NCBI RefSeq assembly: GCF_002504165.1
Contig: NZ_CP021404.1
Span: 2,108,001-2,172,000 of the forward strand
DNA: 64,000 bases
Origin: Pacificitalea manganoxidans
GTDB taxonomy: Bacteria > Pseudomonadota > Alphaproteobacteria > Rhodobacterales > Rhodobacteraceae
Direction: 5' to 3'
Position 1 is the first letter of the stretch. The number at the start of each line of letters is the position of its first letter. Both the position numbers and the translations under genes were made by a program. Positions 1 to 61,460 of the stretch are shown one piece after another. A model generated the notes under the pieces. The model was not told the origin of the DNA and did not search any database. It worked only from the letters and a program-made list of their open reading frames with translations.

Positions 1-74
1 AGCGCCAGCCCGTGGGGGCGGGCAGGCGCTCGCTCTCGCGCCCTTCGGGCTTGTTCGAGAGCGGAGGTGCTCAG
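1..74 (+). repeat. Hairpin repeat family R1, copy 1 (cut by window edge)
   Basis: This is the right half of the 165-bp R1 element. Hairpin 1 has arms AGCGCCAGCCCG and CGGGCAGGCGCT. Hairpin 2 has outer arms CGCTCTCG and CGAGAGCG. Its inner stem is GCCC-TTC-GGGC, whereas most other copies have GGCC-TTC-GGCC, so one G-C pair is swapped for C-G and pairing is kept. Confidence 0.85.
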
Positions 75-78
75 CACG

Positions 79-152
79 ACGGTAGCCTGCCCGTGGGGAC
101 GGGCAGGCGCTCGCCCGCGCGGCCTTCGGCCTTGTTCGCGGGCGGGGGTGTT
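79..152 (+). repeat. Hairpin repeat family R1, copy 2 (internally collapsed)
   Basis: Box 1 (GCCTGCCCGTGGGG) runs straight into the right arm of hairpin 1 (ACGGGCAGGCGC), with the roughly 100 bp that normally separate them missing. GCCCGTGGGG is shared by both boxes, so a deletion between short direct repeats explains it. Hairpin 2 is intact, with outer arms CGCCCGCG and CGCGGGCG. The 95 bp from here to ccmE hold nothing recognisable. Confidence 0.8.
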
Positions 153-5729: not shown

Positions 5730-5804
5730 GGTCTGGAGCGTGCGGCGTGATTAGGGCCCGGTCGCGTCGCAGGCTCCGCCACGCGTCTGGTGATGGCGCA
5801 AGGT

Positions 5805-5969
5805 GAGCCTGCCCGTGGGGTGGCGCTGTGGCGGCTGGGCGGTGTGCTTTATCCGGGCCACACCCCTCCCCGGTCCGAGGTCAGCGGGAGGTGGCAAAGC
5901 GCCAGCCCGTGGGGACGGGCAGGCGCTCGCCCGCGCGGTTTCGCCTTGTTCGCGGGCGGTTGCGCTTAG
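5805..5969 (+). repeat. Hairpin repeat family R1, copy 3
   Basis: This is a full element: box 1 (GCCTGCCCGTGGGGTGGCGC), the GTGCTTTAT core, GAGGTCAGCG, hairpin 1, and hairpin 2 with CGCCCGCG/CGCGGGCG outer arms. It is the first of three copies in tandem, about 205 bp apart. Confidence 0.85.
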
Positions 5970-6001
5970 GTCGAAGGTTGCGGGACGTCGAGAGGCTAGG
6001 T

Positions 6002-6173
6002 GCAACGTGAGCCTGCCCGTGGGGTGGCGCTGTGGCGGCTGGGCGGTGCGCTTTATCCCGGCCACACCCCTCCCCGCTCCGAGGTCAGCGTGAGATAACA
6101 AAGCGCCAGCCCGTGGGGGCGGGCAGGCGCTCGCCCGCGCGGCTTCGCCTTGTTCGCGGGCGGGGGTGCTTAG
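6002..6173 (+). repeat. Hairpin repeat family R1, copy 4
   Basis: This full element has the CGCCCGCG/CGCGGGCG version of hairpin 2. The inner stem is shortened symmetrically to GGC-TTC-GCC, so pairing is preserved. GTGCAACGTGAGCCTGC precedes box 1, as in the next copy. Confidence 0.85.
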
Positions 6174-6211
6174 GTCGGAGCAGTGCGCCCCATCTACGTT
6201 GTGTAGTAAGT

Positions 6212-6381
6212 GCAACGTGAGCCTGCCCGTGGGGTGGCGCTGTAGCGGCTGGGCGGTGCGCTTTATCCCGGCCATACCCCTCCCCGCTCCGAGGTCAGCG
6301 TGAGGTGGTAAAGCGCCAGCCCGTGGGGACGGGCAGGCGCTCACCCGCGCGGCCTTCGGCCTTGTTCGCGGGCGGGGGTGG
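6212..6381 (+). repeat. Hairpin repeat family R1, copy 5
   Basis: This full element is almost identical to the preceding copy. One outer base of the left arm of hairpin 2 is changed (CACCCGCG). The 123 bp from here to the CBS gene hold no further feature that I can recognise. Confidence 0.85.
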
Positions 6382-6504
6382 GAGGTTCGGAGGCTTCGAT
6401 GGCCCGGCGAGGCAGGTTAACGTGAATGGCGGGCGGCTCTCGCAGCCCGGCACCTTCTTCGCGCGCAGTCGGTCGCGCCGTGCTCCGCCCGCCCGGCTGC
6501 CCGC

Positions 6505-27132: not shown

Positions 27133-27308
27133 GCGCAACCGAAGCCTGCCCGTGGGGTGGCGCTGCAACATCCGAGCGGGTGTGCTTTATCCCACCCACA
27201 TACCTCCACGCTCTAAGGTCAGCGTGAGATGGCGAAGCGCCAGCCCGCAGGGACGGGCAGGCGCTCGCTCTCGCGGCCTGCGGCCTTGTCCGAGAGCGGA
27301 AGCGCTGG
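27133..27308 (+). repeat. Hairpin repeat family R1, copy 6
   Basis: This full element has the CGCTCTCG/CGAGAGCG version of hairpin 2 and an inner GGCC-TGC-GGCC stem-loop. The hairpin 1 loop is CAGGGA instead of TGGGGA. It is tandem with the next copy downstream of hyuB. Confidence 0.85.
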
Positions 27309-27340
27309 GTTCGGTCGTTGTGGAACGCTGACCTTTCAGG

Positions 27341-27514
27341 CGCACCGCAGGCCTGCCCGTGGGGTGGCGCTGCAACAGGTGACCGGCGCGCTTTATCCCA
27401 GCCAAGCCCTTTCCCGCTCCGAGGTTAGCGCAAGATGACAAAGCGCCAGCCCGCCGGGGCGGGCAGGCGCTCGCTCTCGCGGCCTTCGGCCTTGTCCGAG
27501 AGCGGATGCGCTGA
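27341..27514 (+). repeat. Hairpin repeat family R1, copy 7
   Basis: This full element has CGCTCTCG/CGAGAGCG outer arms, a GGCC-TTC-GGCC inner stem, and a CCGGGG loop in hairpin 1. Confidence 0.85.
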
Positions 27515-27523
27515 GCGGTAAGG

Positions 27524-27557: not shown

Positions 27558-30500
27558 TCAGCTTACCAGCAGAACCGCCTCGTGCCGTTTCAGCGTCTTG
27601 CGCGCGGCTTGGTAGGCCGTGCGGCCCTCGGCTTGGCGCAGGTCGGGGAACAGATCGAAGATCTCAGCACGCTGGTCCTGATCCATGCCCTTCAACGAAT
27701 AGTCGCCGGGCTGGAAGCTTTCGGTCCATGTGCCGTCGGACAGGACCACCTCGTGGTTGTCGAACATGAAGTGGATGTAGGTCGCCTGCGTGGCGCGGGC
27801 CCGCTCGACCCCGTCGTGGTTCAGCAAATGCTTGGCCGCGACCAGAACCTCGCGCTCCTCGAAATAGAGGCTCGCCCGGTCCGACGCGATCAGCATCCGA
27901 TGGTTGGGCGACACCAGCATGTCCCGTTCGGGCAGGTTGTTGCCCAGCGATCCGGCACGGATCAGCACCGGCTGTAGATGCGGGCTTTGGCGCAGGCCAT
28001 CCCAATCCAGCAGCTTCTGCCCGGTCCAGCGGATTTCCTGAATGCCGTTGTCGCGGGTGATGACCCGGTCGCCCTCGCGCAGATCCTCGACCCGGCGTTC
28101 GCCCATCGGCGTCGCGATGAGCGTGCCGGGGGTGAAGCAAGGAATGACATTCTCGATCTCCTCGAACGTCATGGTGGAGCCATCGGCGAAGTTGACGATG
28201 CCATCTTCGCGGTCGTCCGACGTGTAGGTGATGGACGACACATTGGACCCGGTCAGATCCAGCGTGTCGAAATCATCGCCGCCCGAGCCGCCGTCGACAT
28301 GGTCGCCACCATTGCCGCCAAGGAACAGATCGCGGTCATCGCCCCCAAAGAGCGTATCCTCGCCCTCGCCACCGATGATCGTGTCATTGCCAGCGCCGCC
28401 ATAGATGGTGTCGTCGTCGATGCCACCGTCGATATAGTCGTTTCCGGCATCGCCGTAGATTTCGTCATCGTCATCCTGACCGAAAATCCGGTCATCGCCG
28501 TCGCCGCCATGGATCACGTCGCGCCCGTTATCGGGGCGCTCGTCGGTATCGTCGGGCACATTCAGGCTGTCGGGGAAGGCCGGGTCCAGACCGCCATAGA
28601 TCGTATCGTTGCCCTCGCCGCCATAAATGGTGTCGGAGCCTTCGCCGCCGACGATGTAATCATCGCCCTTGCCGCCATCGACAAAGTCATCGTCGAACCC
28701 GGCATCGATCCGGTCGTTGCCCGCACCACCATAGATGGTGTCGTTGTCATCGCCGGTGATGATCGTGTCGTTGCCGTTGCCGCCTTCGACATAGTCGCGA
28801 TCGTTGTTGGGATCGGCATCGCCCGGGAACAGCCCCGGATAGCCACGGTCCGGCAGCGGATTGGCGGAATTCGGAGCGGCGGTGTTGATGTAATCGTCGC
28901 CATCATCGCCATACACGGTGTCAGAGCCATCGCCGCCGGTGATGCGGTCATTGCCCGCGCCGCCTTTGATGATGTCATCGCCCGCGCCGCCATCGACAAC
29001 GTCATCGCCGCTCATCGCGTCGATGGTGTCATTGCCGGAGCCGCCCTTGATCGTATCCGCGTCGGAGCCGCCCTTGATGGTGTCGTTGCCGGCACCGCCG
29101 TCGATGGTGTCTTCGCCACCTTCGCCGTTGATGTCGTCGTCACCGTCACCGCCCAGCAGCGTGTCATTATCGGCGGAGCCACGGATGTAGTCGTCGCCTG
29201 CGCCACCGTCGATGTAGTCGTCGCCGCCATTGCCGTAGAGCGTGTCGTTCCCGGCCTCGCCGTAGATCTCATCCGCGCCTTCACCGCCGAACACCTTATC
29301 ATCGCCTGCGCCCGCACGGATCAGGTCATCACCTTCGCCGCCATAGATCAGGTCGGCGTTGTTGTTGCCGATGATCGTGTCGTTGCCCGCGCCGCCCTTC
29401 AGCGTGTCGTTTCCGCCGCCACCGTCGATGTAGTCGTCACCGTCGCCGCCATCGACAACATCGTCGCCGCCCATAGCGTAGATCGTGTCATTGCCCGATC
29501 CCCCGGTGATGTTGTCAGCGTCCGATCCGCCACGGATCGTGTCATTGCCCGCACCGCCGTCGATGGTGTCCCGGCCGCCTTCGCCGTTGATGTCGTCGTC
29601 ACCGTCACCGCCCAGCAGCGTGTCGTCATCGGCACCGCCACGGATGAAATCATTCCCCGCGCCGCCATCGATGTAATCGTCACCGCCATTGCCGTAGAGC
29701 GTGTCGTTCCCGGCCTCGCCGTAGATCTCGTCATTGCCCGCGCCGCCGAAGACCTTATCGTCGCTGGCGCCCGCGCGGATCAGGTCATCGCCTTCACCGC
29801 CATAGATCAGGTCGGCGTTGTTGTTGCCGATGATCGTGTCGTTGCCCGCGCCGCCCTTCAGCGTGTCGTCGCCGCCACCGCCATCGATGTAGTCGTCGCC
29901 GTCGCCGCCATCGACAACATCGTCGCCGCCCATGGCGTAGATCGTGTCATTGCCCGAACCGCCGGTGATGTTGTCCGCGTCGGAGCCGCCCTTGATGGTG
30001 TCGTTCCCGGCACCGCCGTCGATGGTGTCTTCGCCACCTTCGCCGTTGATGTCGTCGTCACCGTCACCGCCCAGCAGCGTGTCATTATCGGCGGAGCCAC
30101 GGATATAGTCGTCGCCTGCGCCACCGTCGATGTAATCGTCGCCGCCATTGCCGTAGAGCGTGTCGTTCCCGGCCTCGCCGTAGATCGTGTCGTTGCCCTC
30201 GCCGCCGAATACGGTGTCATCGCCGTCACCGCCATAGATGGTGTCGTCGCCCGTGCCACCATGCAGGCGGTCATTGCCGCCTTCCCCATAAAGCGTGTCA
30301 TTCCCCGCTTCGCCATAGAGGACGTCGTCGCCCGCGCCGGTGTCGGTCGCCGCGCTCGTCGCACCGCCGCCGTCATACTGGGTGCCGTTGCTGTCGCCAT
30401 AGATGACGTCATCGCCCTCGCCGCCCCGGACCGTGTCGCTGCCGGACCCTGCATAGACCTCGTCATCCCCCGCGCCCGACAGCACCGTGTCGTCGCCATC

Positions 30501-31223
30501 CCCGGCCAGCACGATATCGTCCTGCGGGGCCTCGCCGGGCAGCAGCGCGTCGGAATTGTCGATGAAATCGCCTTCGGGGTCGTCCGCATAGGCCGCGTCG
30601 ATCAGATCTCCGGCCAGCGTGCCTTCGACCAGACCGTCGCGGGGCAGCTGCGGCTCGTTGTCTTCGTCGTCGATGCAATCGAAGGCAAATTCCGACAGGC
30701 CGATCGTGCCCGCGCTGCTGCTGCTGTCACCGTCCGTATGGATCACCTGAATCGAGGAAACCGGGCCGGGGATGGTCACTGTCACGCTGTCCGCGGCACC
30801 GGACCCGTCCACGCCGGGATTGACGTTGCCGCCCCCTTCGATGGTGTTGCCGTTGACCTGATGGTGCGAAGTGAGGTTCGAGAAAGTCACCGGCAGCACA
30901 TTGCCTTCGGCATCCTTGGCGATGACCGTCACCCGGTCATCCCAGCCCCGGCCCGCATCGACGTCATAGATGGCAAAGGTCACATTCTCGACCGGCTCGG
31001 AGAAGTCGACATAGGCTTTCGACGTGTTGCAGCCCGGCGATGACCAGAGCACCCCGTTATACCATTTGAACCCCGCATCCCCGTGGCCGTCGGGCGTTTT
31101 CAGCGTGACATCCACGTCGCCACAGCTGGAGGTGACGTCGTCGTCATCGTCCCTGTCGCACTTGTCCCAGTCGGTCTTGTAGTCGTGATCACGGCTGTGA
31201 TGGTCATCGGAACGGTAGGTCAT
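27558..31223 (-). CDS. RTX calcium-binding protein with C-terminal Hint domain
   Basis: The 1221-residue acidic protein is expected to leave the cell by a type I system. Residues 1-210 are a non-repeat beta-rich region. Residues about 240-1010 are nonapeptide RTX repeats (GGxGxDxIx) that fold as calcium-bound beta rolls. From C1029 (CFTPGTLIATPMGERRVEDL) runs a Hint-type domain, related to hedgehog/intein self-splicing domains and frequent in rhodobacterial RTX proteins. The repeats contain a near-exact 153-residue tandem duplication. GAGGATT precedes the ATG. No type I exporter genes are adjacent. A role in adhesion or matrix is possible but unproven. Confidence 0.88.
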   Translation of the reverse strand: MTYRSDDHHSRDHDYKTDWDKCDRDDDDDVTSSCGDVDVTLKTPDGHGDAGFKWYNGVLWSSPGCNTSKAYVDFSEPVENVTFAIYDVDAGRGWDDRVTVIAKDAEGNVLPVTFSNLTSHHQVNGNTIEGGGNVNPGVDGSGAADSVTVTIPGPVSSIQVIHTDGDSSSSAGTIGLSEFAFDCIDDEDNEPQLPRDGLVEGTLAGDLIDAAYADDPEGDFIDNSDALLPGEAPQDDIVLAGDGDDTVLSGAGDDEVYAGSGSDTVRGGEGDDVIYGDSNGTQYDGGGATSAATDTGAGDDVLYGEAGNDTLYGEGGNDRLHGGTGDDTIYGGDGDDTVFGGEGNDTIYGEAGNDTLYGNGGDDYIDGGAGDDYIRGSADNDTLLGGDGDDDINGEGGEDTIDGGAGNDTIKGGSDADNITGGSGNDTIYAMGGDDVVDGGDGDDYIDGGGGDDTLKGGAGNDTIIGNNNADLIYGGEGDDLIRAGASDDKVFGGAGNDEIYGEAGNDTLYGNGGDDYIDGGAGNDFIRGGADDDTLLGGDGDDDINGEGGRDTIDGGAGNDTIRGGSDADNITGGSGNDTIYAMGGDDVVDGGDGDDYIDGGGGNDTLKGGAGNDTIIGNNNADLIYGGEGDDLIRAGAGDDKVFGGEGADEIYGEAGNDTLYGNGGDDYIDGGAGDDYIRGSADNDTLLGGDGDDDINGEGGEDTIDGGAGNDTIKGGSDADTIKGGSGNDTIDAMSGDDVVDGGAGDDIIKGGAGNDRITGGDGSDTVYGDDGDDYINTAAPNSANPLPDRGYPGLFPGDADPNNDRDYVEGGNGNDTIITGDDNDTIYGGAGNDRIDAGFDDDFVDGGKGDDYIVGGEGSDTIYGGEGNDTIYGGLDPAFPDSLNVPDDTDERPDNGRDVIHGGDGDDRIFGQDDDDEIYGDAGNDYIDGGIDDDTIYGGAGNDTIIGGEGEDTLFGGDDRDLFLGGNGGDHVDGGSGGDDFDTLDLTGSNVSSITYTSDDREDGIVNFADGSTMTFEEIENVIPCFTPGTLIATPMGERRVEDLREGDRVITRDNGIQEIRWTGQKLLDWDGLRQSPHLQPVLIRAGSLGNNLPERDMLVSPNHRMLIASDRASLYFEEREVLVAAKHLLNHDGVERARATQATYIHFMFDNHEVVLSDGTWTESFQPGDYSLKGMDQDQRAEIFDLFPDLRQAEGRTAYQAARKTLKRHEAVLLVS
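29022..30182 (-). repeat. 459-bp tandem repeat inside the RTX gene (about 2.5 copies)
   Basis: The same sequence recurs with an exact period of 459 bp (anchor TGCCGTAGAG at 29231, 29690 and 30149). Each unit encodes 17 nonapeptides (153 residues). Two full units and about nine nonapeptides of a third are present. Homology at DNA level shows recent duplication, and copy number may vary between strains. Confidence 0.85.
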
Positions 31224-46792: not shown

Positions 46793-46954
46793 AGCCTGCG
46801 CGTGGGATGGCGCCGAAACGGTTGAGCGGCGCGCTTTATAGCGCAACCAACCTCCCCGCCCCGAGGTCAGCGAGCGATAACAAAGCGCCAGCCCGCCGCG
46901 ACGGGCAGGCGCTCGCTCTCGCGGCCTTTGGCCTTGTCCGAGAGCGGTTGCGCT
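46793..46954 (+). repeat. Hairpin repeat family R1, copy 8
   Basis: This full element has a divergent box 1 (GCCTGCGCGTGGGATGGCGC). The hairpin 1 loop is CCGCGA, and hairpin 2 has CGCTCTCG/CGAGAGCG with inner GGCC-TTT-GGCC. Confidence 0.85.
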
Positions 46955-46987
46955 CAGTTCAGAGGCAACGAGGCATAGCTAATCCGA

Positions 46988-47157
46988 GTGCAACGCCAGC
47001 CTGCCCGTGGGATGGCGCCACAACACCTGAACGGCGCGCTTTATGGTGCAACCAACCTCTCCGCCCAAAGGTCAGCGCGAGGTGGCCAAGCGCCAGCCCG
47101 CCGGGACGGGCAGGCGCTCGCCCGCGCGCTTCGCTTGTTCGCGGGCGGGTGCGCGCA
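46988..47157 (+). repeat. Hairpin repeat family R1, copy 9
   Basis: This full element has CGCCCGCG/CGCGGGCG outer arms and the shortest inner stem (GC-TTC-GC), again trimmed symmetrically. Confidence 0.85.
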
Positions 47158-47159
47158 GC

Positions 47160-47236
47160 ACAACGGTAGCCCGCCCGTGGGATGGCGCCCCACCGACCAA
47201 GCCCCACGCTTTATCGCGACACGTCCCCCCCCGGCA
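47160..47236 (+). repeat. Hairpin repeat family R1, copy 10 (left half only)
   Basis: Box 1 (GCCCGCCCGTGGGATGGCGC) and the CGCTTTATCG core are present. The element breaks off before the hairpins and abuts the 3' end of the dehydrogenase gene. Confidence 0.7.
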
Positions 47237-61198: not shown

Positions 61199-61373
61199 CG
61201 CAACGGGAGCCTGCCCGTGGGGTGGCGCGGGGACGGTGGGGCGGGTGTGCTTTATAGCGCCAGATCCCTCACCGATCAGAGGTCAGCGTGAGGTGGCAAA
61301 GCGCCAGCCCGTGGGGACGGGCAGGCGCTCGCTCTCGCGGCCTTCGGCCTTGTTCGAGAGCGGGGGTGCTTCG
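61199..61373 (+). repeat. Hairpin repeat family R1, copy 11
   Basis: This full element has CGCTCTCG/CGAGAGCG outer arms, a GGCC-TTC-GGCC inner stem, and the TGGGGA loop in hairpin 1. A stub of a twelfth copy (GCGCAACGCGAGCCTGCCC) follows at 61405-61422 and stops inside box 1. Confidence 0.85.
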
Positions 61374-61460
61374 TTCGGAGATGGCTGAGCACCGGAAGGC
61401 CGGGCGCAACGCGAGCCTGCCCCTGATGCGTCGCCGCAAGTCCGCCCCGCCCCCTGCCCG

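Follow-up and report, generated by a model that had tools for sequence, protein, structure and literature searches.

The 64,000 nucleotides of DNA analysed here (the window, C1:2108001-2172000 of the 3.96-Mb genome of Pacificitalea manganoxidans, referred to below as the host) contain five arrays of a repeat that we read, at a probability of roughly 0.5, as a dispersed palindromic DNA element of Rhodobacteraceae with two ends, non-autonomous, REPIN-like and RAYT-less, that acts as folded single-stranded DNA. The folds of the repeat are kept across genera while their sequence changes, and its copies are dispersed and do not occupy orthologous sites.

The repeat unit of about 165 bases consists of a left end, A (AGCCTGCCCGTGGGRTGGCGC in the window units), about 70 nt containing a GCTTTAT..GCCA motif, hairpin 1 (H1), with the arms AGCGCCAGCCCG..CGGGCAGGCGCT, and, directly after it, hairpin 2 (H2), in which a bulge on one side (TTGTT or TTGTC) separates an outer stem from a short inner one. 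The hairpin part of single copies folds at -41 to -43 kcal/mol, with z of about -2.4 to -2.8, and the A half folds no better than its shuffles. The eight full units of the window could be aligned with a mean column identity of 84%. In most first copies of the host arrays the distance from A to H1 is 89-91 nt, and conservation in first copies begins about 9 bases upstream of A; the conserved central motif suggests a function beyond spacing.

All of the window copies lie on the plus strand. Array 1 (1..152) holds the end of one unit (H1 and H2, 1-71) and a second, deleted unit whose left end runs straight into the 3' arm of H1 (covariance model match at 79-152). Array 2 is made up of three units, at 5806..5973 (A 5806-5826, GCTTTAT 5846-5852, H1 5898-5927, H2 5928-5958), at 6010..6177, 204 bp past the first, and at 6220..6390, 210 bp past the second. 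The two units of array 3 are found at 27143..27314 (H1 27236-27265, H2 27266-27298 in the CTCTC form) and 27350..27516. Array 4 comprises units at 46793..46963 and 46998..47160, the latter in the CCCGC form with a short inner stem, and a terminal part unit at 47168..47236 with only the left end and the GCTTTAT motif, and array 5 a full unit at 61208..61382, which has the top score of all genome copies with the model R1, and a leftover of the next left end (AGCCTGCCCCT, 61414..61424). All the copies reported by the earlier note, ten or more at five loci with incomplete ones counted, are present where it had placed them; its description of H1, with invariant arms and a variable loop, and of H2, with two outer-stem forms and inner-stem variants, is also accurate for the window, in which 99.5% of cells are paired and 3 pairs have changed on both sides, against 27-45% paired in slid controls. 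The length of 165 bp that it gave applies to the unit, while the period of the arrays is about 204 bp because a spacer of about 40 bp repeats along with the unit. On the minus strand of array 2, a frame in which the repeat has no stop codons stays open for 197 codons (5751-6344); it was not taken as a gene, since the units do not follow one another at a constant multiple of three. The second unit of array 3 is followed after 42 bp by the end of an ORF of 1221 aa with many GGxGxDxx-type, RTX-like repeats, on the minus strand at 27558-31223.

A search of the whole genome with a 73-nt covariance model of the repeat detected at least 150 copies, to which the stretches read added 7 further strong ones, so that 157 were aligned. 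They form 71 intergenic arrays of 1-6 units with a unit spacing of about 204, and 10 of the 71 end in a remnant of A behind their last copy. The copies are unevenly spread, being scarce at less than 0.5 Mb from the origin. Identity between units is 82% within an array and 78% between arrays, and no more than 53 of 140 units have their nearest relative in their own array, so that units have been exchanged or have spread between arrays to a substantial extent. One rearranged unit (C1:111472-111573 of the host, G000; locus L047, 5001-5102), in which a second left end splits the halves of H1, is evidence of recombination between units.

The two forms of H2 need to be considered separately within the host genome and across genera. 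Among 150 aligned host copies the outer stem is CGCCCGCG/CGCGGGCG in 73 and CGCTCTCG/CGAGAGCG in 46, and about 10 copies are mixed, with their two arms belonging to different forms or with an arm that is only half changed; the claim that the forms change always on both sides together therefore holds in the window and breaks down genome-wide. By the main measures, pair counts in the host exceed those of every shuffled and slid control. When the H2 form is mapped on a tree of low signal built from the remaining unit sequence, it changes 34 times, compared with 33.7 for shuffled labels. The outer form is associated with the inner-stem type (p 2e-6, host copies), so that H2 appears to pass between copies as one piece. 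The paired changes within the host genome are thus best seen as two alleles swapped between copies, not as many independent compensatory events. The mismatch types in the stems point clearly to neither strand, the ratio of G-T to A-C being 24:32 in the 150 host copies and 20:9 on the H1-H2 strand across genera (p 0.06).

Across genera the picture is broader. Five relatives have the same layout with different stem sequences, and in 68 sequences from about 35 genera 97% of cells pair and 17 of the 23 stem pairs have changed on both sides, which indicates that the pairing is truly conserved. The cross-genus covariation score is 0.264, versus 0.061 when shuffled and at most 0.048 when slid, in an alignment that was fitted to the structure and is biased towards it, the changes being nonetheless plain in the raw sequences. 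The view of the earlier note that compensatory change is strong evidence of a selected fold is thus upheld for the pairing of H1 and H2, which is conserved beyond sequence, but not for the host stem forms, which behave as alleles. Template switching at DNA hairpins can generate multi-base compensatory changes in one event (PMC8794818), and covariation alone is therefore no proof of selection; the simplest explanation of what is seen across genera is nonetheless that folded DNA is selected, with a possible contribution from template switching.

A third arm takes part in the fold. The outer 8 nt of the left end agree with the reverse complement of the 5' arm of H2 at 6.83 of 8 positions, versus 5.34 when shuffled (0/5000; one sequence per genus, about 30 genera), and taxon-specific versions of the left end, such as GCCGTGCC and CAGGGGCC, follow the H2 arm. 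Host copies no longer have this outer left arm (2.57/8 versus 2.59 shuffled). Since in most genera the left end is the reverse complement of the H2 5' arm, the element can fold over its full length into a single hairpin, and its ends are inverted over about 30 bp. RNAalifold, applied to 24 genera, prefers one long end-to-end hairpin, with H1 plus H2 as the alternative. The left end and the H1/H2 right end are inverted copies with about 75 nt between them, and the loops and the inner motif GCTTTAT..GCCA are conserved across genera outside any stem.

A pattern search for A plus CTWTAT retrieved at least 120 stretches from about 35 genera, and every match listed comes from a genus that we take to belong to Rhodobacteraceae in the wide sense. 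With a second covariance model, 97 of 247 sampled genera of this family matched, a lower bound because only 20 candidates per genome were scored, and among 241 genomes sampled from Alphaproteobacteria, of which a few besides the host belong to the same family, only the host matched. Copies per genome range from 1 to 150+, Pseudoroseicyclus tamaricis having at least 149, and plasmids of Salipiger and Pseudosulfitobacter carry copies that are unannotated there. No exact match was obtained in viral contigs and no match in phages, and phage origin or carriage was rejected on these searches. In Alloyangia, Puniceibacterium and Sediminimonas (loci L167 2224-2363, L164 4207-4302, L183 and L232), the loop or arm of H1 harbours additional hairpins of the type GCACCTCTGGTGC, one nested in the other, which seem to be a different short palindromic repeat that has inserted into the H1 loop. 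An Rfam scan of the window returned tRNA alone and a relaxed scan of the five loci nothing over the repeat, in line with the earlier note, which knew of no named family with this architecture; a named Rhodobacteraceae repeat of this kind was likewise absent from the open-access papers searched, and a description elsewhere is possible.

The host arrays, judged against genes from our own gene caller, all lie between genes without overlapping any of them, 35 in convergent, 34 in tandem and 2 in divergent gaps, compared with 14/90/55 among array-free host gaps of >150 bp; the corresponding numbers for the copies of Pseudoroseicyclus are 27/46/2. Copies are placed downstream of genes and avoid divergent promoters. 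Within the tandem gaps of both genomes together, the strand of the element agrees with that of the genes in 44 cases and disagrees in 36 (p 0.43), which is no gene-strand preference. A preference is found with respect to replication. C1 probably begins at the origin because dnaA is at C1:1278, and with the terminus taken at half the chromosome length, 51 of the 69 chromosomal host arrays point against the replication fork (51:18, p 9e-5), as do 25 of 34 at convergent sites alone (25:9). Counts against the fork in three other genera, made by hand with approximate contig sizes and the origin set at dnaA, were 18:7, 26:17 and 8:5 (together p 0.014), and these are supporting figures since copies in tandem are not independent. 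Of the two forms proposed for the fold by the earlier note, RNA or DNA cruciform, DNA fits better than a cis-acting RNA, given that orientation follows replication and not the gene strand. The loop of the inner hairpin, similar across genera, is nearly always TNC or TNT with a closing C-G pair, with T first in 125 of 126 host copies, and its opposite strand mostly reads C(GNA)G, an unusually stable DNA mini-hairpin. When the element is in its favoured orientation, it is the C(GNA)G strand that lies on the lagging-strand template, and loop type and strand placement are suggestive, without being proof, of DNA-level folding.

Only 10 of 142 flanking genes are shared between the copies of the host and those of Pseudoroseicyclus, near the approximately 6 expected for random placement, so most copies are not ancestral fixed sites, and a reading as orthologous, anciently fixed sites was rejected. 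Copies are found near pheT in six genera (loci L091, L104, L189, L203, L225 and L230); their sites and orientations differ, which likewise goes against orthologous sites, and the neighbourhood of pheT is a possible hot spot. A search for RAYT (Y1 transposase, PF01797), positive in E. coli and four other named genomes as controls, found none in the host genome or in 14 of 16 repeat-rich relatives, the gene being present in 2/16 of these versus 2/14 repeat-free genomes. Genes beside copies include no recurring family other than housekeeping genes and no linked transposase gene, and no autonomous version of the element was seen in the loci read.

Several known systems resemble the element in part. 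Miniature inverted-repeat elements (MITEs) are short, non-coding and dispersed, with inverted ends, and so is the Rhodobacteraceae element, but its H2 is partly outside the inverted ends and no matching full transposon was found. With REPINs (PMC3116915) it shares two inverted palindromic ends around a spacer, the alternative of one long hairpin or separate end hairpins, many intergenic copies, common compensatory changes and the occurrence of ordered clusters. Inverted REP-like ends able to form one long hairpin were found in about 30 genera (24 by RNAalifold), their outer part being lost in the host, and the distribution is high-copy and extragenic (150+ copies, no called-gene overlap). It differs from REPINs in that the host and most repeat-rich relatives have no RAYT gene, in its length of about 165 bp, which exceeds that of the Pseudomonas GI type, in its unequal ends with the extra H2 on the right, and in its conserved spacer motif. 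The absent RAYT gene rules out membership as a RAYT-driven REPIN, and for this reason, together with the extra right-end hairpin, we call the element REPIN-like, not REPIN. BIME/REP elements, both RAYT-associated ones (PMC2817692) and the GTAG- and CGTC-tagged REPs (PMC3733652), are likewise high-copy extragenic palindromes in mosaics of inverted units, whereas the Rhodobacteraceae unit is much longer and has a fixed A-to-H1 spacing and a replichore orientation bias; inspection of the alignments revealed no GTAG or CGTC tag at the unit ends, which are of the GCCGGGCG or GCGCAACG type. Sub-terminal hairpins, and the orientation bias expected of insertion into the lagging-strand template, are reminiscent of the IS200/IS605 family (IS608; PMC6006769), from which the element differs by having neither Y1 transposase nor coding capacity and by ends that are inverted repeats.

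From these findings we infer a lagging-strand step, a mobilising enzyme and actual transposition. The folded single strand would be exposed on the lagging-strand template, where a putative enzyme supplied in trans might recognise and copy it; insertions would survive mainly 3' of genes, and unequal recombination between copies would produce the tandem 204-bp arrays and the swapped H2 forms. As the outer left arm is lost in the host, arrays there now probably spread more by recombination than by transposition. A stronger form of this proposal, which we put forward tentatively, is that the repeat represents a class of replication-coupled single-stranded DNA elements specific to Rhodobacteraceae, in which three mutually complementary arms would alternate between a single long hairpin and a pair of end hairpins, and which would be moved by a putative non-RAYT enzyme.

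The same polarity could also be expected of functional chromosomal sites, bound by gyrase, a nucleoid protein or a segregation factor, that were selected at gene ends with an orientation tied to replication. The replichore bias even at convergent sites, the location of half of the host arrays between convergent genes, where positive supercoils build up, and the strong conservation of GCTTTAT..GCCA would agree with such sites, but a repeat that is present in only 97 of 247 genera, varies so widely in copy number, is scarce near the origin and has no conserved positions between genera makes this explanation unlikely. A structured cis RNA in 3' untranslated regions, as a terminator or mRNA-end stabiliser, or a multicopy small RNA, is rather more doubtful. 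It could account for stable hairpins downstream of genes, for their cross-genus covariation and for the slight predominance of G-T over A-C mismatches that the H1-H2 strand has in the cross-genus set, yet that predominance is absent from the 150 host copies, no preference for the flanking-gene strand is seen, the AAA before H1 is not kept in Pseudoroseicyclus, and Rfam gave no match. The consensus has no T-run, reaching no more than TTT, behind H1 on the opposite strand and not kept in Pseudoroseicyclus, and this and the lack of gene-strand preference rule out an intrinsic terminator.

Covariation might even arise without selection, if the repeat were a decaying relic whose arms stayed complementary through gene conversion from copy to copy and through template switching at DNA hairpins. 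The block changes in both arms, of a kind that template switching is documented to cause (PMC8794818), and the lack of correlation between the H2 form and the rest of the unit are what this explanation would predict, but it is improbable in view of three separated arms, the left end and both H2 arms, that stay in step over about 30 genera, of loops and an inner motif conserved outside any stem, and of the persistence of the repeat throughout the family.

REPINs are thought to need RAYT, and the spread of an element of similar structure through Rhodobacteraceae without RAYT would imply another mobilising enzyme or another route of multiplication. The replichore polarity makes the lagging-strand model directly testable, and the copy-rich and copy-free genera of this large and ecologically important family offer a ready comparison for finding the enzyme. 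The repeat also explains much of the unannotated intergenic DNA in these genomes.
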